Shown here piece after piece: positions 1 to 35,312 of a DNA stretch of 64,000 nucleotides. The stretch spans positions 1-64,000 of the forward strand of contig JAWXAT010000056.1 in the NCBI GenBank assembly GCA_034439615.1, in the 5' to 3' direction. The notes below the pieces were generated by a model that was given only the letters and a program-made list of their open reading frames with translations, made no database searches and was not told where the DNA came from. This DNA comes from Oligoflexia bacterium. Its GTDB lineage: Bacteria > Bdellovibrionota > Bdellovibrionia > JABDDW01. The position numbers and the translations under genes are program-made. Within the stretch, counting starts at the first letter, position 1. Each line of letters begins with the position of its first letter.

Positions 1-3000
1 ACACTGTCATTGTTCCGTTATCATTGAGTGTTATTTCTTCTGGAATTTGCTGTGCAAATGCTTCGTTCATTACTTCAACAGGCATTGTTACTACACCTGA
101 TTCAGTATTCACACTCATATCTGTTGGAGGTGTAATGGTAACTGAACCCTCTGCATCTGTGCTGGCGAAATCAACATTCTGAAAAGTTGCAGATTCATTA
201 ACCGCAGATGCTGTTGCCGTTGATTCAATATTTGGATTAACAGTTGTAGAACTTGCAGAATCAGCAGAACTCGAAGCTGTCGGCGTCGACGATGGTGTCG
301 GCGTACTGGTATCCGCTGCAGGCGTTGCACTTGCAAAACTTGGCGTACTTACAGTTCCTGCACTGGCTCCTGGAATACTAAATCTTCCAGTTGATGAATA
401 AAGATGACGATCGGGACGCGAACTAAAATCTGATCGCGTATGATGTCCGTTATCACGAAGATTGTATCGTGAACTTGTTTGACTTTGTTCAGTTTGAGAA
501 TAGTTATTTGAACTTACAAAATTAGCTGAAGGTGCAGGAACCGTAAAACTTCCATTGCTGTGATACTGAGTACCTGCAGGCAATGTTACAGTTAGATGCC
601 CTGATGGTTGTACTTGAAGCATTGGTGGTAAAATTTGATTAACAACATTATTTTCAAGACGAACATTACCAGTCGTTGCATCAAAAGACATACCGGGTTG
701 CAAAACTACTATGACCGTACCATTCTCAGTTATTCCAGCTTGAATTCCAGAGGGAATTTCATAGAGGTGCACAGATCCAGGAGGCATTTGAATTGTATTT
801 GTTGCCGCATCAAAAACTGTTCCCTCAGGAGTCGCGATAGACGCACTTCCATCAATATTTAAAGTTAAATTTTCAGGAATAAGTTCTGCAAACTCTGCAT
901 TAACAGTTGCTAGTGGTATTGTTGCAGTACCCGCTTCTGGGTCAACGACTACTTCTGCCGGCGGCTCAACTGTTATTGAACCAGCAGCATCGCTTGTGAT
1001 CCATTCTGGTCCATTGAGAACGTAGTCTGGTTCTGGTGAATTTATAAAATCAGCATCTGCTGTTGGTATCGTAAAACTACCATCGCTATAAAATTGCGTA
1101 GTCGCAGGCATATCTACAAGAACTTGTCCGTCAGTAGTCACATAAACACTAGGAGGAACAAATTCATTGACCCAATAGTTATCTACTTGAATGGTTCCAG
1201 TGTTTGCATCAAAGGTCATTCCATCCGGTAAATACGCAGTAGCTGTGCCATCGGGGTTTAAATAAACCTCTACTTGAGAAGGTAATTCACTAATATTTAT
1301 AGACGCTGCTGAAAAAGTAAGTGCATTTTCATTTGCGTCAAAAGTTGTACCCTGAGGAACAACTATCTCCATAGTGCCATCATCTTTAAATTCTACTTCG
1401 CCTAGAATTTGATCAGAAAATTCTGCTGACAAAACCTCAACAGACATCGTTACAATTCCAGTTTCAGCATTAACCTGAACACCTTGAAGTGGTTCAACAG
1501 TTACAGCACCATTAGCTTCAACAGTAACCCACTCTGGTCCGTTGACTGCATAATCTGGTTGAGGCTCTTCTAAAAATGTTGAAGATTCAGCTGAGATAAT
1601 AAAACTTCCATCTGATTTAATTTCAGTATCACTTGGCAACGCAACCATAACTGAACCATCAGTTTGTACTTCAACTTGTGTGGGAATAAGTTCGTTTGTC
1701 CAGTAGTTATCAACTTCGATAACGCCAGTGTCTTCATTAAATGTCATTCCATTTTGCAAGTAGGCTGTGATTGTTCCATCTTCATTAAGTACTGGAGCAA
1801 CTGCTTCTGGAACTTCTGCCATGTGCACACTTTCAGCAGGCAATGTAATAGAATTTTCTTCTTGGTTGAAAACTGATCCCTCAGGAACAGCAACAAGCAT
1901 TGTTCCCTCATCACTTAAAGTTATATTTTCAGGTAGCGGTAATTGTTCTGGAACTGCTGAAGCTGAAAATTGCAACTGGCCATTTACAACTTCAACACCT
2001 TGAGGAGGCGTAACGGTGTATGAACCGTCTCCATTTGCAATTGCAAAGCTTGAATCATGTACATAATCAGGAGCAGAGATGTCTAAAAAAGTATTATACT
2101 CAGCAGCGATTGTTAATTCTTTACCATCTGCAGAAACTTGTGTCTCAGGAGGTAATTCCACGGCAACTGAACCATTGGGTTGAATCACAACCGCATCTGG
2201 TACAACTTCATTTGCCCAGTAATTATCAAGAGTCACTGTACTAGCTGCAGCATCATACGACATACCATCCGGCAATGTTACAGTAACACTTCCGTCGGGT
2301 GCTGTAATTGCAACAACACCTTGAGGAATTTCACCAAGTTTTATTTCTTCAGGTGGAATCGTCAATGCATTTGTCTCAGAATCATATGTTGTTCCTTCAG
2401 GAACTTTTACATCCATTGAGCCATCATTGTTAATTGTGACATTTTCTGGGAGTGCGAGCAGTCCGTCTACTCCTGCGTGAGGAACAACGGCAATGCCCTC
2501 ATCAACAACAACTGCTGACGGAACTTCTAAACTTACTGAACCATCAGCATTTGCTGTTGCGAAATCTAGTTCAGATAATGATTCAGGTACTGGTGTATCA
2601 AGGTAGCCAAGAGATTCTGCTGGAATCACTAACTCACCTGAGTCTAAAACAACAGTTTCAGGTGGCAGAGTTACATCAACTGAACCATCGTCTTGAATTT
2701 CAACATATGAAGGCGCAATTTCATTTGCTAACTCATTATTGATAACCAAAGTATTTGACTGGGCATCAACAGTTACGCCATCAAACGGATACACAACACT
2801 TGTGGATCCATCAGGATTAACAAATGCATTAAATTCTACGGGAATCTGTTCAATCTTTACTGTATCGGGTGGAAGAATAACCGTATTTGATTCAGCTAAG
2901 ATTTGTGTTCCTTCAGGAAGATCAACTTTTAATGAACCATCTTCTTGAATTTGTACAGCTTCAGGAAGTGGCAAAAAATCATTTGCTGCATCTACCGGGA

Positions 3001-3727
3001 AATTTGCAATACCTTCGTCTATAGTCATTCCCTCAGGTGGTTGAAGTTGAACACTTCCATTATCTAATGGTGTTGCCCACTCAGACTCTTTCCAAGACTG
3101 CACTTCTTGATCAACATAATCTTGACCACTTGTATCACTGATTGAATCTGCAGATTGATTAAGTCCCTGTGCTGCGGTTGCAACAGAGGGTTCTTGTGAA
3201 TTGTTTTCAGGTGACGTAGCTACAGCTGTATCAACTTGTGAAAGTGTTTTTGCTGCAGATTTATCTGATTCTGTATCATCGGATGTTGAACCTGTATCAA
3301 CTTTTTTATCAAAAAAATCTTTGGAGTGATCTTTGAATTGCCCTTTGTGTTCACCTTGATTATCGCGATCGCCACCATGTTGATGTGCGCCACCTTGGCC
3401 ATGTTGCCCGCGCTGACTGTTATCATTTTTATCCCGTGAATCGTTGTCTTGCCCGTGTTGATTAGCACCACTGTGATCAAGCTTATCTATTTTTTGACCA
3501 TCTAATGAAGTCTCAACAACTTTACCATGCTTTTGCGAACGATCATCATCATCACCCATGTCTTGCGCAGCACCTGGGTCAACAAGACCGCTGACCATAC
3601 TGGGTGCAATTCGGTCTTCAAGTTTTACGACTTGTAGTTTGCGCACTGTCTTTTTCTTTTTTGCGGGTGAAGCTTTTGGTTCTTCTTTTTGACGACGATC
3701 TTTTTTCGAGCTGCTGGATTTTGACAT
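1..3727 (-). CDS. Giant repetitive surface/secreted protein, N-terminal part (3' end outside window)
   Basis: An uninterrupted reading frame runs from ATG at 3727 to the left edge, giving at least 1242 codons with no stop. A Shine-Dalgarno GAAAGG precedes the ATG. The N terminus is Ser/Lys-rich (about residues 1-30) and leads into VVKLEDRIAPSMVSG at about residues 33-48. This resembles the LEPR/LEDR-type N-terminal motif of large planctomycete-like exported proteins; no classical signal peptide is visible. A His/Gly/Gln/Asp-rich low-complexity stretch follows (about 85-135), then acidic Ser/Thr-rich sequence. From about residue 215 the protein is built of 172-177 aa repeats rich in DGS/NPDG turns, V/P and 'DNYW.NE'. 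A Ser/Thr/Pro/Ala linker lies near positions 240-330, after which repeats resume. It is divergent from the GAF-HlyD gene. The likely role is an adhesin or surface fibre; that is inference. Confidence 0.85.
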   Translation of the reverse strand, partial: MSKSSSSKKDRRQKEEPKASPAKKKKTVRKLQVVKLEDRIAPSMVSGLVDPGAAQDMGDDDDRSQKHGKVVETSLDGQKIDKLDHSGANQHGQDNDSRDKNDNSQRGQHGQGGAHQHGGDRDNQGEHKGQFKDHSKDFFDKKVDTGSTSDDTESDKSAAKTLSQVDTAVATSPENNSQEPSVATAAQGLNQSADSISDTSGQDYVDQEVQSWKESEWATPLDNGSVQLQPPEGMTIDEGIANFPVDAANDFLPLPEAVQIQEDGSLKVDLPEGTQILAESNTVILPPDTVKIEQIPVEFNAFVNPDGSTSVVYPFDGVTVDAQSNTLVINNELANEIAPSYVEIQDDGSVDVTLPPETVVLDSGELVIPAESLGYLDTPVPESLSELDFATANADGSVSLEVPSAVVVDEGIAVVPHAGVDGLLALPENVTINNDGSMDVKVPEGTTYDSETNALTIPPEEIKLGEIPQGVVAITAPDGSVTVTLPDGMSYDAAASTVTLDNYWANEVVPDAVVIQPNGSVAVELPPETQVSADGKELTIAAEYNTFLDISAPDYVHDSSFAIANGDGSYTVTPPQGVEVVNGQLQFSASAVPEQLPLPENITLSDEGTMLVAVPEGSVFNQEENSITLPAESVHMAEVPEAVAPVLNEDGTITAYLQNGMTFNEDTGVIEVDNYWTNELIPTQVEVQTDGSVMVALPSDTEIKSDGSFIISAESSTFLEEPQPDYAVNGPEWVTVEANGAVTVEPLQGVQVNAETGIVTMSVEVLSAEFSDQILGEVEFKDDGTMEIVVPQGTTFDANENALTFSAASINISELPSQVEVYLNPDGTATAYLPDGMTFDANTGTIQVDNYWVNEFVPPSVYVTTDGQVLVDMPATTQFYSDGSFTIPTADADFINSPEPDYVLNGPEWITSDAAGSITVEPPAEVVVDPEAGTATIPLATVNAEFAELIPENLTLNIDGSASIATPEGTVFDAATNTIQMPPGSVHLYEIPSGIQAGITENGTVIVVLQPGMSFDATTGNVRLENNVVNQILPPMLQVQPSGHLTVTLPAGTQYHSNGSFTVPAPSANFVSSNNYSQTEQSQTSSRYNLRDNGHHTRSDFSSRPDRHLYSSTGRFSIPGASAGTVSTPSFASATPAADTSTPTPSSTPTASSSADSASSTTVNPNIESTATASAVNESATFQNVDFASTDAEGSVTITPPTDMSVNTESGVVTMPVEVMNEAFAQQIPEEITLNDNGTMTV
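515..2823 (-). repeat. Tandem protein-coding repeats of about 517-531 bp in the giant ORF
   Basis: Successive units start near 2823, 2306, 1789, 1261 and 730 on the minus strand. Each begins with an NPDG/APDG/NEDG turn, then LPDGM(S/T)(Y/F)(D/N), then DNYW.NE, then DGS.....LP..T, then PDYV..., and ends with IP..V. The last unit before the linker is a half unit, and a diverged half unit precedes the first. The units are diverged at DNA level, so the array is old rather than freshly amplified. The alternating hydrophobic/DG pattern suggests a beta-sandwich or beta-solenoid fold. Confidence 0.8.
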
Positions 3728-3962
3728 TGTTGGGCCTTTCAATATGTTTATATTTTAAAAGTGATCACTAGAACTGTTTCGACATCATACTGAATTTCTT
3801 AATATATACCGCGCAGTAATCATGCATTTTAATTTTTAAAAAATAATTTAGATTTTTTTTCAATACGAAGGACTAGTCTACTTAACAATAATAGCGCTAA
3901 TTACCATCAACGAATTTCAATTAAATGTCGATGAACTATCTATAGAGGAGTATTTTTTTAAA
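3728..3962. promoter_or_regulatory. Divergent intergenic region between giant protein and GAF-HlyD gene
   Basis: This 235-bp, strongly AT-rich gap must hold the promoters for both outward-facing genes. GAGGAG just before 3963 is the ribosome binding site of the plus-strand gene. The shared control region suggests that the exported protein and part of its putative exporter are co-regulated. I cannot assign a specific operator or -35/-10 pair with confidence. Confidence 0.45.
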
Positions 3963-6560
3963 ATGGCGTTATCGCTGAAGAAAAGAAATTTGAAGGTCGC
4001 GGGTTCTACTGAAGAAAATGCAACTGATGCAAAAGGCACTGATGCGGTAACTCAGCTTCAAACACAAGATGAATCACCTCAGCAAAATTCAATAGAGCCA
4101 ACACATCAATCAGAGCCCCTTGAAGAGGGAATCGCAAATAAAAAAATACAAACTCTTCACCGCCTCAATCTTCTCTATCAAGAAAACAATATTGATATAG
4201 AAAAACTGATGCAAAAACTTTTAGTCCTTGTCGTTGAAAATATGGATGCTCAAGGCGGCTCACTATGGGTTTATAATAAAGAAAAAAATAATGTTACTTG
4301 TAAAGCAGCCACCGGCCCTGGCAGTGAAGGAGTTCTTAATGTTTCAATACAATCAGGAAAAGGAATTGTAGGTTGGGTGGCAGAACACCATAAACCCACA
4401 ATCAGTAATGACACCGGCCAAGATCGACGTTTCAGCAGTAAGACGGATAATCAAACACACCATACCACGCAATCAATTCTAGCGAGCCCCTTAATATGTC
4501 GAGGTGAACTCGTAGGTGTTATTGAAATTGTTAATAAAACTAAAGGTGAAGCAGAATTTAACGAACAAGATCAAAACTTTCTTTTTGATATTTGCGTACC
4601 AGCAGCGATGCACATCATGAGCTCTATAGTCATGAAAAGACAAGATGACCTCATTAGAAAGCTTGATGTTTTACACGGACTTCAAGAGTTATTTGGTTCC
4701 ACAATGGAGTATGAAAAACTTGTAAATCTGGTACTTCAAAAAGCTGTTGAATTATTAGAAACAGTTGCAGCCTCGGTGTGGCTCCTCGATGAAGCAGCTG
4801 AGAATGTTGTGTGCCTAACAGCTGAAGGGCCAACAAAAGATAAAGTTATTAAACTCGCAGTTAAAAAAGGCGATGGAATAGTAGGATGGGTTGTAGAAAA
4901 TAAACAATCTTCGTTGGTAGAAGATTGTTCAAAAGACCCTCGGTTTTTAGCTTCTCTAGATGAAAAAACAAAATTCGTTACAGAGTCTATGGTATGCGTT
5001 CCTCTTACTGCAAAGGGTGAATGCATTGGCGCTATTCAACTTATTAATAAACGCACAAAAGGACAACTTTTTTCACAAGATGATCTTGAGTTCGCAGAAG
5101 TCTTTGCAGCCAATGCTGCAATGTTTATAAAAAATGCAAGTCTCTATGCTTCAGAAAAAAAGGCCAAAGAACTTTCTGCGCTTATTACAATTAGTAAAGA
5201 AATCACCGCCACTTTAGATATCAATGCTGTTTTAATGTCGATTGTAAATCTATCAGCCGACGTGATACCATATGATCAAGCAGCCATTTCACTTTTTCAC
5301 CCCATCGAACAAAAATTTATCGTTAAAGCCATTAAGGGTTTAGAGTCCGTTGATCAAGATTTACCAGAAACACAAAGTTTAAATCGTATTCATAATTTGG
5401 TAGCTCAAGGCAAAGGTGAAGTTACTATTAATAGCCTAAAAGAGTACACAGACACTGCTGAATTTCAATCACCAGAAATGAATGGATACTTCAACAGCCA
5501 AAATCTCCAATCTTTTTGGGCTTACGCACTTAAAGATGACCAGGGCATTGTTGGTGTTTTGACTATGCAATCCAAAAAAATCAATATGATCTCTGCAAAT
5601 AAAAAAGAATTACTTTCTCTACTTGTAAGTCAATGTACCGTTGCCTTACGTAATGCAGAGCTCTACACAACGATTCCAAATGCTAAGGTTTTTGAATCTC
5701 TCAAATCTGGCTTGCTTAAAAAATTCTTAATGTTTCGACAATGGCCAATTAGAAAGCAATGGCATTTTGTAGCAGCTGTAGCTGTGGTACTTTTATCTTT
5801 AGTATTTTTAAAAGTCCCATATCATGTATCAGCAAATCTTGAAGTGGTTCCAGTCTCTACAACATATTACTCAGAAGCCAATGGCATTATTGGTTCAATT
5901 TCAGTTAACGAAGGTGCGCGCGTTAAAGCAGGTGATCTTTTAATGCAACTTAATGTTTCTGACTTGATTATTCAAAAGGCAAGTAAAGAAAGTACCCGCT
6001 CAAAAGTTAAGTCTGAGATGATTAAACTTTTAGTCGAAGAAAACATCGCCGAATTTAAAATTAAAGAAAATGAAAAAATATCTATGGATTATGAAATTGA
6101 ACGCTTGACCCTGCAAATTAAAAATGCCGAAGTTCGCGCCCAACACCCAGGCGTTGTAGTTACTGAGAAGCTGGGCGAACTCTTAGGCAAGCCAGTATCT
6201 TATGGTGATGAGCTCATCAGAATTGCACGCTCTGATGCAATTTATATAGAATTTGAAGTACCAGAAGAAGAAGTGGTTAATATACAGCCAGACCAAGAAG
6301 TTAAATTCAAAGTTTACGGCTTACCTGGTGTTAGCTTTTATAAAGGCTTAAAACTCGCCTCCGTTGGTGGAGAAGGAGTTCAATTAAATGAGGCTGATAA
6401 AAACAAGTACTTCATAGCACGAGCACAAGTAAAGAATGTTGAAAAAACTCAGCTACGCCCAGGCATGACAGGCCGTGGTCAAATTTATGCCGACAAGCAA
6501 TCATTAGGATTTGTGATCTTCAATAAACCATTTCGCTTTTTATCAATGAAGTTCTTCTAA
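3963..6560 (+). CDS. Triple-GAF sensor fused to HlyD-type membrane fusion protein
   Basis: The 865-aa protein has a polar N terminus (1-55), then three GAF-like domains at about 60-220, 225-400 and 405-570. The first two share the GKGIVGWV / GDGIVGWV signature and the 'GVIEIVNK' / 'GAIQLINK' strand. One membrane segment lies at about 597-617 (FVAAVAVVLLSLVFLKV). After it come a lipoyl/biotinyl half-motif (NEGARVKAGDLLMQL), a coiled-coil hairpin and a beta-barrel ending in LRPGMTGRGQI, as in HlyD/RND adaptors. The GAF part would be cytoplasmic and the adaptor periplasmic, so ligand sensing could be coupled to export. Start: ATG after GAGGAG. It is divergent from the giant protein and convergent with the next adaptor gene. 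Domain calls are firm; the ligand and cargo are unknown. Confidence 0.88.
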   Translation: MALSLKKRNLKVAGSTEENATDAKGTDAVTQLQTQDESPQQNSIEPTHQSEPLEEGIANKKIQTLHRLNLLYQENNIDIEKLMQKLLVLVVENMDAQGGSLWVYNKEKNNVTCKAATGPGSEGVLNVSIQSGKGIVGWVAEHHKPTISNDTGQDRRFSSKTDNQTHHTTQSILASPLICRGELVGVIEIVNKTKGEAEFNEQDQNFLFDICVPAAMHIMSSIVMKRQDDLIRKLDVLHGLQELFGSTMEYEKLVNLVLQKAVELLETVAASVWLLDEAAENVVCLTAEGPTKDKVIKLAVKKGDGIVGWVVENKQSSLVEDCSKDPRFLASLDEKTKFVTESMVCVPLTAKGECIGAIQLINKRTKGQLFSQDDLEFAEVFAANAAMFIKNASLYASEKKAKELSALITISKEITATLDINAVLMSIVNLSADVIPYDQAAISLFHPIEQKFIVKAIKGLESVDQDLPETQSLNRIHNLVAQGKGEVTINSLKEYTDTAEFQSPEMNGYFNSQNLQSFWAYALKDDQGIVGVLTMQSKKINMISANKKELLSLLVSQCTVALRNAELYTTIPNAKVFESLKSGLLKKFLMFRQWPIRKQWHFVAAVAVVLLSLVFLKVPYHVSANLEVVPVSTTYYSEANGIIGSISVNEGARVKAGDLLMQLNVSDLIIQKASKESTRSKVKSEMIKLLVEENIAEFKIKENEKISMDYEIERLTLQIKNAEVRAQHPGVVVTEKLGELLGKPVSYGDELIRIARSDAIYIEFEVPEEEVVNIQPDQEVKFKVYGLPGVSFYKGLKLASVGGEGVQLNEADKNKYFIARAQVKNVEKTQLRPGMTGRGQIYADKQSLGFVIFNKPFRFLSMKFF

Positions 6561-6628
6561 GCTCATTTGGCAATTAAATTTATTTGAAAAATATGAAATT
6601 GATTTATTTAGCCGTTATCGATTCAATC

Positions 6629-7423
6629 TTAAAATTCAAGATTTGCAATCATTCCGGGCTTTAGAAGATAGGTGCCATCTTCTGACTTTTTGACATTGCT
6701 GGCATCAAGCTTTACACGAACCGTTTCACTAGGCGAATCAATGACGGGACTTACGAAAGTTACAACTGCTTTGAATTTCACATCTTTTAACTCATCAACA
6801 GTAAACGTTAGTTCACTTCCCGTTTTAATTTTAATCGCATCAACTGATGAGATATAGGCCACCATAACGAGCTCGCCAATTTGTACAATTTGAAATGCGC
6901 GATCACCGGCTTGAGTTGTTTCACCGGCCTCAATATAGCGACGTGTGATCACACCATCAATGGGAGCGGCGATATGTGTATTGATTAAATTTATGTCACG
7001 AATTTCTAAAGCTGTTTTTTTGCTGTGATATGTATCTTCTTTTAGTCTTATCTCCTCACGAGATACGTATTTTTTAAGGCGTCTAGTTTTAACAAGGTCA
7101 TCACTAGCTGTTTTAAATTCCATTGATGCAAGCTCACGCTCAGCGCGCGGTTGTTTATCATCAATAACAGCCAACTCTTGACCTACTTTTACTTCACCCC
7201 CCTCATCAACACCAACGCTTTTAATCTCACCAGAAGCTTTTGCTTTCACAAAAATTTCTTTTTTACCAAAGATAAGGGCCGTCGCTTTTGATTTCATTTT
7301 AATTTGTGGAACTGATACAGACTCAGGGACATGAGGTTCCAAGACTTTAGCTTCGGGCTCAGTGTACGCCACTGCTATGCCTGTGAAGAATGTCAGAATG
7401 TAGAAAATCCATTGCAAAGACAT
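6629..7423 (-). CDS. HlyD/RND-type periplasmic adaptor subunit
   Basis: This 264-aa protein has an N-terminal signal sequence or anchor (WIFYILTFFTGIAVAYT). A first lipoyl half lies at about 60-90 (KASGEIKSVGVDEGGEVKVG), a short helical hairpin at 95-140, the second lipoyl half at about 150-175 (NTHIAAPIDGVITRRYIEAG), and a C-terminal barrel ending in LKPGMIANLEF. These are hallmarks of membrane fusion proteins that bridge an inner-membrane transporter to TolC. It starts 15 bp after the M50-HlyD gene stop, so the two form one minus-strand operon. A GAGGT site lies 12 nt before ATG. No partner RND pump is encoded nearby. Confidence 0.88.
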   Translation of the reverse strand: MSLQWIFYILTFFTGIAVAYTEPEAKVLEPHVPESVSVPQIKMKSKATALIFGKKEIFVKAKASGEIKSVGVDEGGEVKVGQELAVIDDKQPRAERELASMEFKTASDDLVKTRRLKKYVSREEIRLKEDTYHSKKTALEIRDINLINTHIAAPIDGVITRRYIEAGETTQAGDRAFQIVQIGELVMVAYISSVDAIKIKTGSELTFTVDELKDVKFKAVVTFVSPVIDSPSETVRVKLDASNVKKSEDGTYLLKPGMIANLEF

Positions 7424-7438
7424 ATTTATCTACTTACC

Positions 7439-9514
7439 TCAGTAAAAAAGATCTAATCTAAAAAACAGCATAAATTTTCGCACAACATAGCGAGCGACTG
7501 ATACAGACTTTGTACCAACCTCAGCTACACCTGTCATACCCGGTCGCAAATCACCGGGATTCCTAAATAAGATTTCGGCACTATACTGCTTAGCTTTAGG
7601 ATTTATTGTGTCAGGCCGACTAAGTGTACGAATACGAGCCACTTGCCCTACGTAAGTCTTGAAGGGCGAACTCAAAACCTTAAATTCAACAGTATCATTT
7701 TCAGCAACAAATCGAACTTGATCTTCTGGAATTTCAATCACAGCTTTTAGTTGCGCTACTCCATTAACTCGACAGAGCTCATCACCCGCTTTTATAAACG
7801 TATTGAGTTTTCGAATGATGTCATTACATGAAATAACGCCCTCTTCTTTTACTCCTTCAAATGTCAGTTTAAGTGCATTCACTTGGCGATCAAGTTCTTT
7901 GAATTCTGCCTGCTTGGCCACCATTTCACTTTCTAAGCCTGATTTATGAGTAAGATCATCACGCATCGCTTGTTTTACTCGAATTGACATTTTATCAACT
8001 GCTAAACTTTGAATAACGCGATCATAATGAAGCGAAGTATTTTCTAATTCTGCAACTACCTGCCCTGGTTTTACAACATACCCGTCATCAACTAATAATT
8101 TTCGTAAAAATCCGTCTGAGCCTGCACGAATTACTTGAGTAAACGTTGGCTCTAGTAAACAGTGACCATTGACTGTATAAGAAACAGGAATCAAAAATAG
8201 ACTTAAAAAAAACAACAAACCGAATGCTGCTATTTTTCTACCTTTAGGACTTTGAAAAAAAACTTTGTGCGAGAGCAAAAATTGAATTAAAAAAACACCA
8301 GCTTTTTTCATATGACTCCCAAATAGTTTGTACGCAACCCACATTGAAACAACCACTCCAAAACCAAAATAATTCTCAGTCAAAAATGTTTTAGCTAAGA
8401 AAAATAAACCCAACGTCAAACTTGTGACCCACATTAAAGAAAGAACACCATAAGTGAAAAAAATTATTTTCTCTCTTCTTGTTCCTGGAATCTCTTCTGG
8501 CTTTTGAAAAAATATATAGCGACTTACAAAGTATTTAACATATGAAAATGACGAATCACGAAGATTTGGAATTTCTAAAAAATCAGCCAACAAATAATAA
8601 CCATCTAGCTTCACCAACGGGTTGAAGTTAAAAAGTACTGTGGCTGCAGTACAAACACTTACAACTTGAAGACTAAGGGTGTTGAGCAATGTCTGTGGAG
8701 GAGAAATAAACCAAATATAAACAAATATTGTCCCCACAGCGAGCTCAATAAAACTCCCCGCCACTGTTACCATGATTTGTTTCCATTTTTGATCAAAGAG
8801 CCACGCATCGTTAACATTGCAATAAAGGCAGGGCTGGAAAAACAGCAATAAAACACCAATCTCATGAACTTCCCCACCATAATACTTACAAGTAAGACCA
8901 TGACCAAGCTCATGAACACCGATGATGGCAAAAATTGTAATCCATAGTAAGAGCCAATTAAATGCCGACATTTCACTAAATGAAAATACCTGCCTAACCC
9001 CTTGCTCAAAACCATTCCAATCATAAAATATTAATGAGGCTGCAAGTATCATTGACCCAATTGCTAAGACAAAAAACTTTTTGGTCCAAAAAAATCCAAT
9101 ATGCGGAATAATTTTGTTAAAAAATTTATCAGGGTCTATCACAGGAAATCTTCTGTAAAGCAATGTTCCCTTTTGACTTAACAAACGGCTTTTGCGCATC
9201 TCTTTCATTTTTTCAATGAGCATGATATTTTGATCACGCTTGGATGATTCAAGAAGTTTCATCTCTTCGAGTTTTTGTTGATAGTCTTTTAGTGTGCTAT
9301 GATCGATCTGTAATTTTGATTCCGTAGAATTGTAAGCAACAACCATTTCTTCTAAAGTGCGCGTGCCATCGAATAAAGATATTACCTTCCATTCTTCCTC
9401 ATCAAAACGGAAGTACTGAGTTTTAAGCGTGTCTTTAATAACAAAGCTTACACGCTCACTCATCACTTGACGTGACACCTTAAGATCTGATCTTAAGGCC
9501 GGTGCTTTAGGCAC
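7439..9514 (-). CDS. PqqD-like domain / M50 site-2 protease / HlyD fusion protein
   Basis: The 691-aa protein has three parts. Residues about 18-90 look PqqD/RRE-like: a predicted winged-helix peptide-binding module with VIKDTLKTQYFRFDEEEW and LFDGTRTLEEMV. The central membrane part carries the zinc motif HELGH (about 202-206) and the third metal-ligand region NPLVKLDGYYLLADF, typical of M50 'peptide zinc metalloprotease' proteins, with several membrane helices up to about 440. The C-terminal third (about 450-670) has lipoyl halves, a coiled coil and a barrel ending in LRPGMTGVAEV, as in HlyD adaptors. GTG start at 9514 has GGGAG 6 nt upstream. With the adaptor and TolC neighbours it likely forms an ABC-independent export complex (inference). 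All protease residues appear intact. Confidence 0.87.
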   Translation of the reverse strand: MPKAPALRSDLKVSRQVMSERVSFVIKDTLKTQYFRFDEEEWKVISLFDGTRTLEEMVVAYNSTESKLQIDHSTLKDYQQKLEEMKLLESSKRDQNIMLIEKMKEMRKSRLLSQKGTLLYRRFPVIDPDKFFNKIIPHIGFFWTKKFFVLAIGSMILAASLIFYDWNGFEQGVRQVFSFSEMSAFNWLLLWITIFAIIGVHELGHGLTCKYYGGEVHEIGVLLLFFQPCLYCNVNDAWLFDQKWKQIMVTVAGSFIELAVGTIFVYIWFISPPQTLLNTLSLQVVSVCTAATVLFNFNPLVKLDGYYLLADFLEIPNLRDSSFSYVKYFVSRYIFFQKPEEIPGTRREKIIFFTYGVLSLMWVTSLTLGLFFLAKTFLTENYFGFGVVVSMWVAYKLFGSHMKKAGVFLIQFLLSHKVFFQSPKGRKIAAFGLLFFLSLFLIPVSYTVNGHCLLEPTFTQVIRAGSDGFLRKLLVDDGYVVKPGQVVAELENTSLHYDRVIQSLAVDKMSIRVKQAMRDDLTHKSGLESEMVAKQAEFKELDRQVNALKLTFEGVKEEGVISCNDIIRKLNTFIKAGDELCRVNGVAQLKAVIEIPEDQVRFVAENDTVEFKVLSSPFKTYVGQVARIRTLSRPDTINPKAKQYSAEILFRNPGDLRPGMTGVAEVGTKSVSVARYVVRKFMLFFRLDLFY

Positions 9515-9578
9515 AAGTTTCTCCCAGCGTAGATTCGGTACACATCAACTTATCGACCTAAAAACGGTCACACTCAAG

Positions 9579-9592
9579 GCCAGAAGTCTGGC
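9579..9592. promoter_or_regulatory. Dyad in the M50 / TolC divergent promoter region
   Basis: GCCAGAAGTCTGGC is a perfect 6+6 dyad with a 2-nt centre. It lies in the gap between the divergent M50-HlyD and TolC-like genes. It could be an operator or a small hairpin. No regulator gene is adjacent, so this is a weak call. Confidence 0.25.
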
Positions 9593-9688
9593 TTTACCTC
9601 TCATCAGTATCTTGTCTTTAGGCCAATTTCTTTAGACTCGACCAGCAAGGTCATGCAGCAGAAGGGCTTTGTCTTTCATAATATAAAG

Positions 9689-11161
9689 ATGAGGGAAATG
9701 TATTTTTTCATAATATGCATAAGTGTGTCATTCGCGACTTCTAATTCTTTTGGATCCTCCCTATCATTACGCCAAGCTCTTATTGAAAGTTTAAAGCACA
9801 ACCTTAATATTAAAATCAGTAATCTTACTGCTGAAGAAAAAACAGCACTCGTCACAAAAGCTTTGGGTGAATTTGATCTCAACCTTAAACTTAGCTACAC
9901 ACAAGACCACAGTGACACACCCTCATCTTCAAGCCTTGATGGTGTCACTAGTTCGGTAATTAAAAACACCACAACTTACACAGGCGTATTATCTAAAAAA
10001 ACAATTTGGGGCGGAGAGTTTACTCTCCCCTATGATTACGCAACTTCTAATTCCAATTCTACAAACACTCGCATACCACAAGATCATACAACCTCATTTG
10101 GCATCACATTATCACAACCCCTTATCAAACCCTTTTACTTCGGATATTTTTCTCGCAATCATGCGAGCGCAGAATACGATTGGGAAATTGCCCAGCACCA
10201 ACGATATGAACAGATCATTGATTCATTGGTAAAAACTATGGGTCTTTACCTTGATACTTTAAGAGATTCTGAAGCTCTTTACATTAAAGTAAAAGCAAAA
10301 GATTTTTCTGAACAAACACTTGAATTTACAAAAGCTAAACTTCAGCTTGGTAAAGCTTCACATGTCGACAAACTTGTTGCTGAGAGTAAATGGCAAAAAG
10401 ATTCTGAAGATTTACGTGCCGCGAAGACTTCACTGCAAAATAAAACTGAAGAACTGGTTTTAAATATTTATGGCACTACTGACACACAAATTCAATTAGC
10501 ACAAAACCTCAAGGCCCTTGAAGTACCGCCACCCAACACCGAAATGGAAGTAGCCATCACTGAAGCCTTAAAAGCTCGTTCAGAATTGAGATCAGCAGAA
10601 ATTGCTGTTAACAAAGCTGATGCAGCAGCAGGTGCAGCATCGATTGAAAGATTACCTTCAGTCACGGCAGACGGCAAAGTGATCTATAAAGGTTTAGCTT
10701 CAAATTTTGATGACTCTCAGTCACAAGTCAAACAAGGGCTACGCCCGTCTTATACAGCGGGTGTTAAAATCGAGCAGCCCCTTTTAATGTATACATCTCG
10801 AGGGGAGTATCAATCAAAGTCACTTCAACTTTCACAAGAAGAACTAAAACGACTTCAGATTCGTCGTAATATCACTCTTGAAGTACGTAAACACATGCGC
10901 CAACTTCATACAAATTGGTCACGCTTAGAAGTACTCAGAGCCGTTGTCAAAGCTGAGAACTATAAACACGAAGGTCAAATACAACGTTATCAGCTAGGTA
11001 AGATTTCACTTTTTGAGTATTACCAAGCCCATCAAGATCTGGTGCAGGCCGAGTTTGAGTTAATAGATGCCCAAACTTCTTATATTAGATCTCTATACTC
11101 ACATTTTAAGTCTCGAGGTCGCCTTCTCAAAGAACTTGGACTTTCAATTAATTCAAATTAG
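9689..11161 (+). CDS. TolC-family outer membrane efflux protein
   Basis: About 490 aa in the outer-membrane-factor family. The chosen ATG (9689) puts a signal peptide (MREMYFFIICISVSFATS) at the N terminus; an in-frame ATG at 9653 would add 12 residues that do not look like a signal. The mature part has SLRQALIESLKHNLNIKISN, long alpha-helical stretches with repeated LGK(A/I)S turns (KLQLGKASHVD, QRYQLGKISLFEYYQAHQDL), and two homologous halves. These form the trimeric outer-membrane channel that pairs with HlyD-type adaptors. It is divergent from the M50-HlyD operon and is the likely exit duct for this locus. Confidence 0.9.
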   Translation: MREMYFFIICISVSFATSNSFGSSLSLRQALIESLKHNLNIKISNLTAEEKTALVTKALGEFDLNLKLSYTQDHSDTPSSSSLDGVTSSVIKNTTTYTGVLSKKTIWGGEFTLPYDYATSNSNSTNTRIPQDHTTSFGITLSQPLIKPFYFGYFSRNHASAEYDWEIAQHQRYEQIIDSLVKTMGLYLDTLRDSEALYIKVKAKDFSEQTLEFTKAKLQLGKASHVDKLVAESKWQKDSEDLRAAKTSLQNKTEELVLNIYGTTDTQIQLAQNLKALEVPPPNTEMEVAITEALKARSELRSAEIAVNKADAAAGAASIERLPSVTADGKVIYKGLASNFDDSQSQVKQGLRPSYTAGVKIEQPLLMYTSRGEYQSKSLQLSQEELKRLQIRRNITLEVRKHMRQLHTNWSRLEVLRAVVKAENYKHEGQIQRYQLGKISLFEYYQAHQDLVQAEFELIDAQTSYIRSLYSHFKSRGRLLKELGLSINSN

Positions 11162-11254
11162 CAAAAACTCTAGTATTTTTAGCACTCTTGATATTCACTA
11201 ATAGTGTGCAAAATTCACTTTTCACAATTCAAAGTAACCCTTCAAAGAGGTGTT

Positions 11255-13051
11255 ATGAAGCTTAGACACTTAAGTATGCTTTTGTGCATTTGTTATTCAA
11301 TTACTGCGGCAACTGACCCTGTGACTCCACCAGATAATTCTCACTTAAGCAATTATACGATCCCTCTTTTTTTTGATTTTGCACAAAATGGAGGTGAATT
11401 ATCGGGCTATGAATTTCACTATGTCCTTAAGGGTTCTGACGCTATTGAGATAGCGGATATTTCAATAGCAGATAATTCTATTTCGTTTGAACTAAAACAA
11501 GATACCAATGATAAAGAATCTTATATTGCTCAGTTCACATGGCCAACAACTTTAATTACACACGGTGATATTGAACTCATACATGAGGCTAAAGCTTTTT
11601 ATACCCAAAAAGTTCCATTAACATCAGATCAAGTTTCTTTTTCGTCGAAAATAAAATCAGACGAGTTAAAATCATGGCCACAAAATTTTCCATTTAAATT
11701 TTGCATGAAGAATTTTGTAGATGAATATAAAAGATCTTTTTGTTCTAAGAATTATATCTTAGTTAACAACAAAGACATTTATGCGATAAAGACTCCATCA
11801 GGTTTTAAAAAACAACCTCAAAAAATATTAATCAATGATCAACCCGCAAGCATTCACGGCCCTATTGTTGCCAAAGAAGAAACTAATAAGATTAATTTTA
11901 AAGCCTACTCATCAAATGGTGAGGAGTATGAATTCGATACTGCCCCACCCAGTCAATCTCCAGAATATTTTGATGTGATTCAATCTCCTGATCAAAAAAC
12001 CATTTCTATTCGAGGTAGAGGCACACGCCCCATTGAACCACTAGCTGATAATAACGATCACGACTGGCGCGCCGTCATTGATGCAAACAAACGACATCTT
12101 CGCTTTCGAGGCCTTGGCGAATTTTCTTGGCGTCAATCTCTAAAGCCCACACGTGTATTACCAAAAGAAGAGCACCGTATTTTTTTACAAACAAAATCAC
12201 GTAAGAGCACTTATAGTAGTCAAGTTTTACTTCAAGGGGCATTTCTTAATAAAGAAATCAGCGACATCACATCTCTAGAACACCAAGCCTCAATAACCGC
12301 TGATAAAACATTTGATTGGAATTATTCATCTCCCAAAAAAGCTAGTGTTAATCGCGCAAAAATTAAAATTCTAACTAAAAACAAAGAAGAATTTGGCAGC
12401 TATTTTGATATTTACAGAGGTTTACCCTATGAGGCGATTTTACGATTTACAGGCCTTAAAACAAGTTCATCTCAAGTATTACTAGCAGGAGAACTAGCAA
12501 CCAATGCGTGGCTTGAGCAAATTTTCGGTTGGAAAAACTCATGGTTAAGCGTTCAAAGATGGGGCGCATCTGCAAGATATTTTTCAGGCCTAAATACGGC
12601 AACAGATAGTTTTGAAAAAGCTGTAAAATTTAACACGCTCAATTTTGATTTGAAATACAACTGGAAACCAGGTGTTTGGAATCATGATCTTATTTACGGA
12701 ACCCACTTCAGTTATCAAAGTGTCAACTTCACCGCTACTTCAGCTTCAATGCTAGGTCTTGGCGCATATTATGGTATGCTGCTACCGAAATTTATTGATA
12801 AATTATTGCCATTTAAGCATCCAAAATGGATCAATGCGCAATTTGACTATTATCTGATGCCCGCAACTTCTGCAGCCACACTGAATAGAAATTTTAATCT
12901 CTCGAGTCACTTAAAAATTTATTTCACACCATTTCAATTTATTGAAATGGGGCTTGCCTACCGCTCTTTTGATTTTAAAAATAATGTCACAAAACTATTC
13001 ACACAAACATCCGTTGGATCAGCATCCCTAGGTTACGGTTTAAACTTTTAA
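11255..13051 (+). CDS. Predicted outer-membrane protein of the export locus
   Basis: About 598 aa. The start at 11255 is preferred over 11204 because AAAGAGG precedes it and it exposes the signal peptide MKLRHLSMLLCICYSITAA. The N-terminal half looks like beta-sandwich modules; the C-terminal half (about 350-598) has alternating aromatic/polar beta strands and ends in SVGSASLGYGLNF, a typical outer-membrane barrel terminus. It follows the TolC gene by 93 bp on the same strand and may be co-transcribed. I do not recognise the family. A surface anchor or late-export factor for the giant protein is possible but unsupported. Confidence 0.7.
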   Translation: MKLRHLSMLLCICYSITAATDPVTPPDNSHLSNYTIPLFFDFAQNGGELSGYEFHYVLKGSDAIEIADISIADNSISFELKQDTNDKESYIAQFTWPTTLITHGDIELIHEAKAFYTQKVPLTSDQVSFSSKIKSDELKSWPQNFPFKFCMKNFVDEYKRSFCSKNYILVNNKDIYAIKTPSGFKKQPQKILINDQPASIHGPIVAKEETNKINFKAYSSNGEEYEFDTAPPSQSPEYFDVIQSPDQKTISIRGRGTRPIEPLADNNDHDWRAVIDANKRHLRFRGLGEFSWRQSLKPTRVLPKEEHRIFLQTKSRKSTYSSQVLLQGAFLNKEISDITSLEHQASITADKTFDWNYSSPKKASVNRAKIKILTKNKEEFGSYFDIYRGLPYEAILRFTGLKTSSSQVLLAGELATNAWLEQIFGWKNSWLSVQRWGASARYFSGLNTATDSFEKAVKFNTLNFDLKYNWKPGVWNHDLIYGTHFSYQSVNFTATSASMLGLGAYYGMLLPKFIDKLLPFKHPKWINAQFDYYLMPATSAATLNRNFNLSSHLKIYFTPFQFIEMGLAYRSFDFKNNVTKLFTQTSVGSASLGYGLNF

Positions 13052-18004: not shown

Positions 18005-18754
18005 ATGGAAAAGTGCCTGTTTGTTCTCGCCATTTTAACTTTTTTGCAATCACCCAATGCCCTGGGCGAATCTGAAACCCAAACCCAAACATGGTTTATT
18101 ATCAGCGCCCCTCAGAGTGCTCCAACTTGGAAGTTACAAGCCATCAAAGAAACAACTTTAACTTATCTTTCAGATATTAAGTCGATTCATATTCTCGAAA
18201 ATACCGCGCAGGCAAGTTGTAATGGCCAGACTGAATGTATTTTGAATACAGCTGAATCACAAAGTGTGAGTCTTGTTATCTTTGGCGAACTCATCAGTAA
18301 CAAACTACTACTTAAAAGCTATGCCTCTCAGAATCATGCTCTCATCCAAGAAACTGAAATACCCCTCGGACAAAATTTAAGTCTTGAGGAGTTTCACCAC
18401 AAACTCTCACAGTTTACCAAGTCCTTTAGTCAGATTCCAAATAAACCCAACAAAAATCAAAATCAGCCCTGGCCACTTATATTTTTCTTAATTGGTGTTT
18501 CGGCCGCAGCAATCGTCATTAAAAGCATAAGTTTAATTATAGATAAGATTTATCCTCTCTTTAAACAAAGAGGTAGAATTGCCCTTGTCACCTTGGGCCT
18601 AGCTGTTGGCATTTTACTTGTGAGTGGATTGGTTACCAGTATTAAAAAATCTATCGGGTACCACCCGATTTACTTAAAACGTATAAGTCATTTGAAAAGC
18701 GCAATAGAAATACAACGAAATCAGAGGAGAACTCATGGCACAAGCAAGTATTAA
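18005..18754 (+). CDS. Envelope protein, first gene of MotAB-like operon
   Basis: This 249-aa protein has an N-terminal signal sequence (KCLFVLAILTFLQSPNALG). A periplasmic domain of about 130 residues follows, containing CNGQTEC and LVIFGELISNKLLLKSYA. The pattern of an 'x2-C-x5-C' loop followed by a gamma-turn strand recalls TolB-N/LpoB/CsgG-like folds, but that likeness is weak. Two membrane helices lie at about 157-180 and 195-217, with a basic C-terminal tail. It overlaps the next gene by 20 bp. Not recognised as a known family; its place in the operon suggests a structural or regulatory part of the motor-like complex. Confidence 0.75.
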   Translation: MEKCLFVLAILTFLQSPNALGESETQTQTWFIISAPQSAPTWKLQAIKETTLTYLSDIKSIHILENTAQASCNGQTECILNTAESQSVSLVIFGELISNKLLLKSYASQNHALIQETEIPLGQNLSLEEFHHKLSQFTKSFSQIPNKPNKNQNQPWPLIFFLIGVSAAAIVIKSISLIIDKIYPLFKQRGRIALVTLGLAVGILLVSGLVTSIKKSIGYHPIYLKRISHLKSAIEIQRNQRRTHGTSKY

Positions 18755-19505
18755 ATTTCATCCAGGTGGATCCGGTGCGGGTTTAACTGGTCTTCTCGGA
18801 TGTACCATCTTTTTTGGATTAAGTACCCTTCTCTTTATCACTGAGAATTATTTTGCTTCTTTGTTGTTTGTTTCTTTTGCCCTACTTTTCTACGTGACAG
18901 GCCGAGATATTACAAAAGTTATTTTATCTTCATTTACAATCTTTTTCTCGAACAAGCATCTTATTCCAAATGCCAATTATCTTGAAGAGACTGTAAATGC
19001 ATTAACCGATACCCTTCAATTTACGAGAGACTCAAAAGGTGAAATAAAAGTGGGCCCATTGAATCAGGGTCAAAAAATTACTCTTCCAAATAATCCACTC
19101 GTTAACGATATTCAAAAACTTCTCAGTGAAGGCAAAGGTGTTGATTATGTGGAGTATGTGGCTCACTCTTACTACATCGAATGTCATGAGCTCTATGATT
19201 TTACCAGCGCTAACCTCGATTTTGCAGCAGTATCGATGCCGATTTTTGGTCTCATCGGTACAATTATCGGTCTTATATCGATGTTCGATAATCTAGGAAG
19301 TGTAATCACCATTGAGGCTTTATCACCTCAATTGGCTATGGCCCTAAAGACCACTCTTTACGGCGCATTTTTCTCAGCAGTTTACAAAATTATGGGTTCA
19401 CGTTTTGAAAGACGCATCAGAACTCTTGATTATGATTACGAAACATTTTTCCGTGCTATTGAAGTACTTTTAGAAAACAAAGTCGAAATCGAGATCGGAA
19501 AATGA
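18735..19505 (+). CDS. MotA/TolQ/ExbB-type proton channel protein
   Basis: This 256-aa protein starts at ATG 18735 behind GAGGAG. Two N-terminal helices (GLTGLLGCTIFFGLSTLLFI and a second at about 38-57) precede a cytoplasmic domain. Then come the two diagnostic helices: SMPIFGLIGTIIGLISMF (about 165-185) and LAMALKTTLYGAFFSAVYK (about 200-220), as in MotA/TolQ/ExbB. It would form the pentameric proton-driven channel around the following MotB-like protein, overlapped by ATGA. It lacks the long cytoplasmic tail of ZorA and the FliG-contact loop of flagellar MotA cannot be confirmed. No flagellar gene is nearby, so the driven machine is unknown. Confidence 0.85.
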   Translation: MAQASIKFHPGGSGAGLTGLLGCTIFFGLSTLLFITENYFASLLFVSFALLFYVTGRDITKVILSSFTIFFSNKHLIPNANYLEETVNALTDTLQFTRDSKGEIKVGPLNQGQKITLPNNPLVNDIQKLLSEGKGVDYVEYVAHSYYIECHELYDFTSANLDFAAVSMPIFGLIGTIIGLISMFDNLGSVITIEALSPQLAMALKTTLYGAFFSAVYKIMGSRFERRIRTLDYDYETFFRAIEVLLENKVEIEIGK

Positions 19506-20101
19506 AAGTATACTCAAAAGCCTCACGCATCAGAAAAAGCAGTGAGACTTGGCAGGTAGTCTATATTGATCTTATGACTAATATGATGGTGATTTTCATC
19601 ATTCTTTGGGCCTTGAATCAAGTAAAGCCACAGAAAGCCTCGAGCAGAATAGGTGATACCACTAGCCATATGGTTAACTTAGCAGGAGATGTTATTTTTG
19701 CGCCTAAGAGATCTTCTCTTTCTACAGAGGGAATATCCATTTTCAAAAACCTCTTTGGCAAAACAGATGATAACCCTGTGCTTAATTTCAACACTGGTGA
19801 ATTTACTAAGCGCTATCTTGTTATCCACGGTCACACTGATGGTGATGGTGATAAAGACAAGAATTTTCAACTAGGATTCGACAGGGCGTTAGAAACCTAT
19901 CATCAAATGAGACTCTATAACAACGAGGCCTCAGATCATGTAATTCTTTGTTCTCATGCTGACAACTCACCTCTTCAAGAAATCAACTCGTCGAAGTCCG
20001 CTCCGACTCGATTTTCGCCTGTGGAATTACGAGCCATCAAGGCTAAAAATCGCCGCATCACCATCGAAGATAAAATCGACAGCCGAGTACAAATTCAGTG
20101 A
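19502..20101 (+). CDS. MotB/OmpA-type peptidoglycan-binding stator protein
   Basis: This 199-aa protein has one N-terminal helix, WQVVYIDLMTNMMVIFIILW. Asp23 sits at the position of the MotB proton-carrying Asp. The periplasmic domain is OmpA/MotB-like: VIHGHTDGDGDKDKNFQLGF with DRALETYHQMRL, and KAKNRRITIE at the C terminus, giving the Asp and Arg that bind diaminopimelate. It overlaps its neighbours by ATGA and GTGA. With the preceding channel it forms a complete ion-driven stator pair. At 199 aa it is shorter than flagellar MotB, with a short plug/linker region. Confidence 0.87.
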   Translation: MKVYSKASRIRKSSETWQVVYIDLMTNMMVIFIILWALNQVKPQKASSRIGDTTSHMVNLAGDVIFAPKRSSLSTEGISIFKNLFGKTDDNPVLNFNTGEFTKRYLVIHGHTDGDGDKDKNFQLGFDRALETYHQMRLYNNEASDHVILCSHADNSPLQEINSSKSAPTRFSPVELRAIKAKNRRITIEDKIDSRVQIQ

Positions 20102-32104: not shown

Positions 32105-35100
32105 TTACGCGGGCTTCTTAATAATTATAAGAGGTACAGGGCTTCGAACGAGCGGAGCATTTGGGTCACGGCGATTAAATCCAGGCACCTGATGTAAATA
32201 GCACCACCTTAACATGCCCGATTTCCAGCAATAAGTTGTACGAGTGATATTTCCAGAATCAACAGCATCGCGCAGCTGATCTACCCTGTAAGGACCATAG
32301 GTTTTTGTATCTGTTCCGTAGATATACCATTCATCTAATGTGGCAACGGCTTGTAAATCATCCGATGGCATTTCAGCGTTGATGGCTTTATCAGGATTAT
32401 GCACGCGTCTTGTGAATAGAGGCATTTGCGCCAAGGGCGTCATTTGAGCATCGCCATGTTTGAAAACAAAAGCTTCGTTAAAAGGAAACCCAGGTTGAGC
32501 AACCAAAACTTTGATTTGCGCAACAGTAAATGGGCCATCTTGCTCTTTACTTAAAGGATCCTTTGCCACATACCATTTGTCATGGGTGTTTGACATAGTT
32601 GGAATAGGTGGCTGCTCTTTAGCCATGCGTAACGGCCCTTTGGGATCTAGTTTTGTTGGAAATTGTTCGGAGGGCAATTTCGCCTCAGGTACAAACAAAT
32701 TTGAACCTTGAGTTTCAAATTCCTGAACTAGTGGCGAGGGTTGATGATTCACGTCTTGAGTAATTTCTGCGTATGAAACATCTAATACTACAGTTTTTAA
32801 TTGTTCAGGCTGTTCTTGATTCGAGATGGGGGCAGATATTTGCGCTTCTTGAACTGGTGGTGAGATGATATCAAATTCAAGTTCAGGCAAAGGTTGTTTT
32901 GCTTGAGCAACGGCCGTTGGTGGTGGTTGACCTTGTGATGACATAGGAATGGGTGCTGCTAATGACGATGATGTCGATGCCGATCCCGCTGGCATACTGA
33001 GTCCCATGGATGCTGAGTTAAAAAATGGATCATCCGCAGCTGGAGGTTGAACCGCATAGCCTGGCTGTATTGATACTTGGGATTGTCCACGTGGAGGATC
33101 TTGCACAGGCGGTGCATATTGCACGGATGGTTCAGGTTGCACAGGTGGTGCGTGTTGCACTGGCGGTGCGTGTTGCACTTGATGTTGTGGTTGCGCAATA
33201 TATGTCGGCGCTGCATGGGTGTTGTATTGTGCCGCTACATTTAACCTTGGCGATGATTCCTCTATTTCAATGTCATCGCTTTCATCTTCTTCATGACGAG
33301 ATTTTAAATGTTTTTTACGATGACTTGCAACTTTGTGCTTTTTCTTTAATTTAGGTTTCGGCTTTGGTGTGGGCTCATCATATTCATCGTCAAAAACTTC
33401 ACTTTGCACCCAGTCTTTGATAGTTGATTGTTGCTCAGCATTCAAAACAGTTTCAAGTACACCGTCTGCATTTTTAATTCCAATGACTTGATAAACGCTA
33501 AGATTATCAGCCTTACCTTTAACTTTGATAGACATTAATGGTCCAACTACCACGCCCTTACTCTTAACAAGTGCGTAAGTGGCATCGCTGATAAGAAGAT
33601 CACTTGCGTGTTCTTTATTTGCTGACTCAATACGACTGGCTTGATTTATAGTATCGCCAATAACTGTGTATTCTAAGCGTTGATCAGAGCCGATATTCCC
33701 AGCTAAAACTTCTCCTGTGTGAATCCCCATTCCGATTTTAATTTCAGGTTGGCTACGGGACTTTCTTTTTTTGTTCAGAGCAATCATCGCTTTACGCATT
33801 TCAACAGCTGCCGCTACGGCATCAAAAGCATCTTGTGTACCAGAATTTGGAACACCCCAAAGAGCCATAATCGCATCGCCGACATATTTATCTACGACCC
33901 CGTGATGTTTATAGATAATGGTTACCATTTCAGTCATGTACTCATTAAGCATGCGAACAACTTCATCAGGCGTCATAGATTCGCTTAACGGTGTAAACCC
34001 TCTGATGTCGCTGAAAAATATCGTGGCGATTTTTCTCTCTCCGCCTAACTTAATTTCTCCTGATAATATTTTTTGGGCTATTTCTTTTGAATGAAATTTA
34101 CTAAATGTGCTTTTTAATTTATCTCGCTCTTGCAAACCAACAGTCATTTTCTTAAAAGCTGTCGTAAGCGCGCCAATTTCGTCATTACTCTTTGGCTCAA
34201 GATTAACATTAAAATCTCCTTGAGCAATTTTTTCTGTAGCCCAATAAAGATAACTCAACGGACTTGTCATCGACTGTGAGAATACAAAATTAAAAATAAA
34301 TGCCAGGCCCACAACAATGCACGTAACAAGTAATGCTCTGTACTGAACGCGCATTACTGCAGCAAGGGCTTGCTCTCTTTTTACTTGAGCGACAACACCT
34401 GCACCACCAATACCCAAAGTTTTGTAAGCACCGATATAGGCTTCGCCATGAGTGTCTTCAAATTCCATTTGGTGATTGTTTAATTTGCCTTCGCGCATTT
34501 TTTGTACAATCGGATAAGTAGAGACGTTGTAATTTTGAACAATCATCTTTGGGTCTGAATGCACAAGTAAATTACCGCCTGCATCGACGAGGTAAGCCGT
34601 TAAAAATGATTTCCCTGCAAATAGTTTAATAAGTGCTTCTTGACGAAGTTCGCAGCGCACAAGCAAGCGCTCTTTACTTTGTGCACTTTCTTTTGTCAAA
34701 AAGGCTATTGTCAAAATCGGTTTTTTAAGTAACGGAGAAGTATTTAAAAGCGAAATAGTATCGGGGCGCTTTGCAACTGCATTTGCAATCACCGAAACAG
34801 GGCGACTTTTAAGATCTTCAAGAGTAAGATCAAATTCTGCAAGTACTTCGTCTTTGGTTGCAAAATAAATTTCATGATACCCGCCTTGCGAAGCCGGTCG
34901 ATAAACACCGAATGATAAAATTTCATCGTTTGATCGCAAAACATTTTGAATTAACTGCTGTGATTCTGGAGTAAGACTCTGACCTTTTGCTTGGGCCACT
35001 GTTTGAGTCATGAGGTTCATTTTGTCGGTTGAGTCTTTAAGAATAACAAAAGCTTGGTTTGCTAGTGATTCAGCTGTGTCTTTATTCATTTCTTGGACAC

Positions 35101-35221: not shown

Positions 35222-35312
35222 ATCATGTAAATCGGATATATTTTAAAAAACCTTTAAGAATCTCGCACATTTTGTCGATCAGTGATCGCATCACTTTGTG
35301 GAGAAAACAACC
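35222..35312. promoter_or_regulatory. Shared promoter region of cyclase and FecR-like genes
   Basis: A short gap of about 90 bp separates the divergent cyclase and FecR/Fn3 genes. GTGGAG at 35298-35303 is placed well (9 nt) as the ribosome site for TTG 35313. The upstream in-frame GTG at 35298 has no such site. Joint regulation of the two genes is likely. Confidence 0.4.

Follow-up and report, generated by a model that had tools for sequence, protein, structure and literature searches.

The locus at the start of this contig raises the question of how a repeat protein devoid of a hydrophobic signal could be exported when HlyD-type adaptors and a TolC-like channel are encoded beside it and a pump is not. 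The cluster probably exports this large protein via TolC without the usual ATP-driven pump. The whole stretch of DNA analysed (the window, 64 kb) corresponds to C56:1-64000 of a 70-contig draft genome (3.0 Mb, 96% complete). The source organism is a relative of predatory bacteria; among named genomes it is closest to MAGs labeled "Oligoflexia" and "Bdellovibrionales" (Bdellovibrionota).

Gene layout and the tagged repeat protein

The putative cargo is encoded on the reverse strand (ORF 2-3742, ATG at 3727), with its 3' end beyond the contig edge. The contig start cuts the gene after 1,247 codons; complete orthologues comprise 1,012 (L023), 1,220 (L041), 1,226 (L040), and 2,079 (L039) aa. The protein carries beta-rich repeats of approximately 176 aa, for which the structural model is moderate (pLDDT 82, pTM 0.55) and the fold search against solved structures gave nothing below E 0.001. 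No classical or Sec hydrophobic signal segment was seen by hydropathy. Instead, the N-terminal region carries a conserved tag of approximately 25 aa, KLQVVKLEDRIAPSMVSGLVDPGAAQ (3563..3640, reverse strand; LEDRIAPS codons at 3599-3622), which is kept in six orthologues and followed by a variable linker. This tag is the single site of LEDR[x]AP in the window genome, and the window protein gave no match to NF012209 (LEPR-XLL) at the curated cut-off. The preliminary description of a giant repeat protein with LEDRIAPS and no signal peptide is therefore sustained for the repeats, the tag, and the missing signal, whereas "giant" is unproven for a contig-cut gene.

The gene next to the cargo encodes three GAF domains, a transmembrane segment (residues 602-620), and an HlyD adaptor (3963..6560, forward strand; Pfam GAF, HlyD_D23, and HlyD_3). 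It is followed on the reverse strand by a small periplasmic adaptor of the HlyD/RND-MFP type (6629..7423; Pfam HlyD_D23, TIGR01730 over cut-off) and, separated by 15 bases on the same strand, by a PqqD/RRE-like-M50-HlyD fusion, the putative inner-membrane component (7439..9514). A TolC/OEP outer-membrane channel (9653..11161, forward strand; PF02321, TIGR01844 below cut-off) is oriented, like GAF-HlyD, opposite to the M50-HlyD/small adaptor pair. The three adaptors and the channel that had been read from the sequence were all recovered in place. The adjoining 615-aa protein, a probable outer-membrane protein (11204..13051, forward strand) that matches no family, had also been counted as a component; this assignment was dropped, as no homologue was found at the other loci, and the protein is probably outside the system. 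Further along the window, a MotA/ExbB- and MotB-like pair (18735-20101) may form a proton-driven unit near the locus.

The M50-HlyD fusion and the SecA neighbor in many relatives

The N-terminal domain of M50-HlyD (residues ~5-92; 9239..9502, reverse strand) was assigned by a family profile and AlphaFold2. The profile matches PqqD 3g2b (E 2.4e-5) and 5sxy (E 0.0064); its matches to TfuB1 (E 0.012) and TbiB1 (E 1.1), which bind lasso leaders, are weak. PF05402 scored over cut-off on three of ten M50-HlyD N-terminal segments and below it on four more, and gave no match to the window segment alone; the PqqD assignment in the preliminary description is thus upheld by relatives and the family profile, with Pfam giving no direct hit for the window protein. 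AlphaFold2 predicted three strands followed by helices (pLDDT mostly 84-93), the element order of PqqD. RRE domains bind N-terminal leader peptides, as is established for RiPPs, and binding of the LExR tag is therefore a natural hypothesis. Profile and model together suggest that the M50-HlyD N-terminus is PqqD/RRE-like and a putative leader-peptide binder.

Both motifs of the M50 site-2 protease signature (HExxH and NxxPxxxxDG) are present in the window protein, as HELGH (8900..8914, reverse strand) and NFNPLVKLDGY (8597..8629, reverse strand). The H, E, and H of the former and the N, P, L, D, G, and Y of the latter are invariant, with the catalytic residues unchanged in 48/48 homologues, and HExxH plus NxxP...D are kept in 86/86 cases. 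The curated M50 models that come closest are those of RiPP-pathway metalloproteases (daptide and YydH/LiaK); NF041824 covers residues 19-391 with a score under the equivalog cut-off. The C-terminal part forms an HlyD barrel-sandwich with a short hairpin (7535..8140, reverse strand), according to Pfam and to Foldseek matches with MacA/MexA.

A wider search, by tblastn on plasmids and by a genome scan that gave at least 587 loci (the best 80 used), found the module to extend to Planctomycetes, Verrucomicrobia, Acidobacteria, Nitrospirae, Zixibacteria, and alpha-, beta-, and gammaproteobacteria. The recurrent ATPase neighbor at these loci is SecA, not ABC. The operon SecA of Methylosinus, roseobacters, and others is ~620-750 aa in length and contains SecA_DEAD, PPXD, a P-loop domain, and GEGKT; the wing/scaffold domain gave no match in these short proteins (e.g., L029:16886-18844, L030:17171-19087, and L033:20093-22075, one annotated as "prepilin peptidase"). 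A short second SecA was found in 27 of 50 M50-HlyD genomes, and its presence in 19/22 genomes with a LEPR-8K match, compared with 8/28 others, gives p 5e-5, uncorrected for phylogeny. The preliminary description captured the module with its tagged neighbor and missed this SecA in the operons of many relatives. The window genome and two related genomes of the phylum each possess one full SecA. No secondary SecA_DEAD protein was detected in the window genome, where the second match is weak and spans 66 residues; the window locus is therefore a SecA-less variant.

The M50-HlyD protein might alternatively be a processing or retention device, in which the RRE-M50 part clips the tag and HlyD/TolC keep the protein at the surface or let it go there, the cargo itself crossing elsewhere, for example via SecYEG with an atypical signal. 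The invariant M50 residues, the RiPP metalloproteases as closest curated models, and the single SecA of the window genome agree with such a role, and to our knowledge there is no precedent for an M50 channel or for a giant protein passing through an M50 protein. However, the cargo has no hydrophobic signal, TolC and two adaptors are encoded alongside, and short SecAs occur in the operon although their wing/scaffold is not detected, making this explanation unlikely.

Pairing of tag and machine

Among 241 genomes of the phylum, three encode full-length M50-HlyD; distant matches (G003 and others) were left out of this count as partial or shared-domain hits. The DNA pattern LE[DE]RIAP matched 11 times over 232 phylum genomes, and just three of these matches fell in the N-terminal region of a long ORF, namely those of G000, G211, and G164, which are the M50-HlyD genomes (Fisher p 5e-7, to be read as one association because the two genes are linked). 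The other eight matches were rejected as internal, in short frames, or without coding context. In the three phylum genomes and in the named Bdellovibrionota loci L039, L040, and L041, which show the same synteny, the LE[DE]RIAP protein is located near M50-HlyD, accompanied by TolC and the small adaptor; GAF-HlyD is likewise present at these six loci, except that it was not found in the L040 stretch examined. No relatives of the module were found in viral contigs.

Beyond the phylum, the neighboring long proteins carry tags such as IEPRILLSAD (Thalassospira), LEPRVLLNAD (Methylosinus, 26.5-kb gene), FEPRVLLSAD (Pseudosulfitobacter, 38-kb gene), LEPRYLLSAD (Shimia), LEPRLLLSAD (Thiodiazotropha), LESRQLFDG (E. 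coli), LEPRMLFDG (Kosakonia), LEPRVVYDA (Burkholderia), LEPRFMFDA (Azospirillum), and LEPRIAPA (Chthoniobacter). LE[PDSE]R is one kind of N-terminal tag common to neighboring long proteins in Proteobacteria, Planctomycetes, Verrucomicrobia, and Bdellovibrionota. The motif falls within the first 120 aa in 15/321 machine-adjoining ORFs and in 0/1,218 internal windows, a count that speaks to where the motif lies and cannot serve as independent evidence of its discovery, since the regular expression was built partly from these sequences. Tagged ORFs beside the machine have a median length of 1,720 aa, versus 638 aa. In the Shimia genome of L103, a 9,696-aa ORF with a LEPR-8K match adjoins a short SecA (L157, G282:C37). 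A small DUF3467 protein recurs at 15/91 loci, including many of Planctomycetes, beside the cargo or directly after M50-HlyD (e.g., L028:13502-13798, L030:12693-13013, and L033:15702-16043), and is a candidate chaperone or accessory part.

The curated LEPR-8K model scored over cut-off in 22/50 M50-HlyD genomes and 1/14 controls. A purpose-built tag model added nine further genomes at E<0.01, five of which had supplied training rows, and detected none of 20 Bdellovibrionota control genomes at this threshold. The expected co-occurrence of M50-HlyD and LExR thus holds in 31/50 genomes and fails in the Acidobacteria, where neither model detected the tag in any of seven genomes; several other genomes were also negative. 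Many of the genomes compared share ancestry, so that these comparisons are often not phylogenetically independent. The acidobacterial M50-HlyD sets (L042, L043, L044, L045, L078, L084, and L113) have no detectable tag, and the second SecA is missing from most of them.

When 21 M50-HlyD proteins were placed in a tree and labeled by the class of the adjoining tag, the labels required 4 changes, compared with a shuffled mean of 10.0 (0/200 shuffles as low). The FD class comprises E. coli, Kosakonia, Burkholderia, and Azospirillum (support 100/100), and the remaining alpha- and gammaproteobacteria form the LL clade (support 100/100); the IAP class originates twice, and the long-branched FD row L104 stands apart. 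Tag subclass tracks the clade of M50-HlyD and is independent of species, and the tag accordingly goes with the machine and not with the host lineage. The E. coli operon consists of cargo-TolC-MFP-MFP-M50-HlyD and nothing else, with neither SecA nor ABC, and its M50-HlyD gene occurs in 24/5,426 E. coli genomes, either plasmid-borne or chromosomal and with IS elements alongside. This mobile-looking operon (L188:9723-29474 in E. coli H5; L121:4830-18209) pairs an Ig-like protein of 4,459 aa with its putative exporter.

It could also be supposed that what the module exports or matures is a small molecule or peptide, with the tagged proteins as mere hitchhikers, because RiPP pathways typically employ PqqD and M50 domains and the acidobacterial sets have no detectable tagged cargo. 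Against this, the machine has a tagged protein as its neighbor in four phyla or more, and the tag class tracks the machine clade, which leaves this interpretation improbable. Conserved synteny and co-occurrence bear out the claim that an HlyD/M50/TolC module without an ABC partner lies beside a protein tagged at its N-terminus.

Energy source, proposed route, and known systems

A search with ABC and MFS reference homologues gave no match in the 64-kb window. A 1,038-aa ORF at 32105, suspected from its length to be an RND pump, was rejected as a guanylate cyclase; this HAMP-guanylate cyclase-GYF_2 protein adjoins a FecR-domain protein (32105-37463). The reported lack of an ABC, RND, or MFS gene beside the locus is thereby confirmed. 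Four ABC_membrane proteins were found genome-wide in the 96% complete draft, and no HlyD, TolC, or cargo gene lies next to any of them. TolC and HlyD usually partner ABC proteins, and one of these four might drive the adaptors as a type I system from elsewhere in the genome, but by inspection they resemble MdlAB, MsbA, and PglK relatives, no ABC gene occurs in the operons of E. coli, Kosakonia, Burkholderia, and Azospirillum, all of them complete, and the recurrent ATPase is SecA, so that this option is a shade less probable still than the hitchhiker explanation.

The reading that we consider rather likely is an RRE-M50-HlyD/TolC exporter that recognizes the LExR tag and is powered by SecA, whether dedicated or housekeeping. 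The cargo tag would first be bound in the cytosol by the PqqD/RRE-like domain of M50-HlyD, and the M50 membrane domain would hold or clip it and form or gate the inner-membrane passage. SecA would then feed the chain, as a short dedicated protein in many relatives and as the housekeeping protein here and in E. coli. From the SecA-less E. coli operon and the one full SecA here, we infer that housekeeping SecA may drive the SecA-less types, which is the weakest step of the scheme. By homology, the bridge to TolC would be built from the HlyD parts of three proteins (M50-HlyD, GAF-HlyD, and the small adaptor), with the GAF domains possibly sensing a cytosolic signal, and the repeat protein may fold outside as a surface fiber or adhesin. 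Extended to a widespread non-type-I pathway, in which a PqqD/RRE-like domain reads LExR and a SecA-driven M50-HlyD threads giant repeat proteins through TolC, the proposal is tentative. If true, such a pathway would account for the tagged giants known from Planctomycetes and Proteobacteria, where LEPR/LEDR proteins reach thousands of residues and for which no export route was found in the literature searched. Two orphan halves, the SecA-HlyD locus of 2015 and the LEPR-XLL tag, would each gain a partner open to testing, for instance in Methylobacterium extorquens.

The module itself has been known since Kamneva, Poudel and Ward (2015; PMC4452313) described a secondary-SecA locus with HlyD/M50/GAF proteins and no ABC, comprising three HlyD-domain proteins and sometimes an OEP, and spread horizontally; in Methylobacterium extorquens AM1 the operon is META1p2402-2399. 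They proposed M50 as the membrane pore, SecA as the ATPase, and GAF as the sensor, so that neither the module nor M50 as inner-membrane component, as suggested in the preliminary description, is new. What seems to be new is the tag-machine pairing and the RRE-like domain: "LEPR" is absent from that text, LEPR-XLL is mentioned once each in two of 5.39 million open-access papers, and no publication joining tag and machine was found in this open-access set.

GAF-HlyD, M50-HlyD, and a small HlyD protein occur together without an ABC gene in the Kamneva locus as here. The secondary SecA of that locus is lacking in the window genome, and the window locus is thus not a full member; conversely, its accessible description includes no PqqD/RRE-like domain or tagged cargo, as proposed for the window locus, and its title taxa omit Bdellovibrionota, to which the window locus belongs. 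Type I systems (HlyB-HlyD-TolC) share the HlyD adaptors, TolC, and a repeat-rich cargo without Sec signal, whereas they employ a dedicated ABC ATPase and a conserved C-terminal signal in place of the M50-HlyD fusion, without adjacent ABC gene, and the conserved N-terminal tag found here. The LEPR-XLL (NF012209) giants likewise bear an N-terminal LEPR-type tag on long repeat proteins and differ in that the window tag is LEDRIAPS, with no match to the model. RiPP leader recognition and intramembrane proteases (daptide, YydH/LiaK) combine an RRE-like domain with M50 as well, whereas the window M50 is fused to HlyD and its putative substrate is a large protein.
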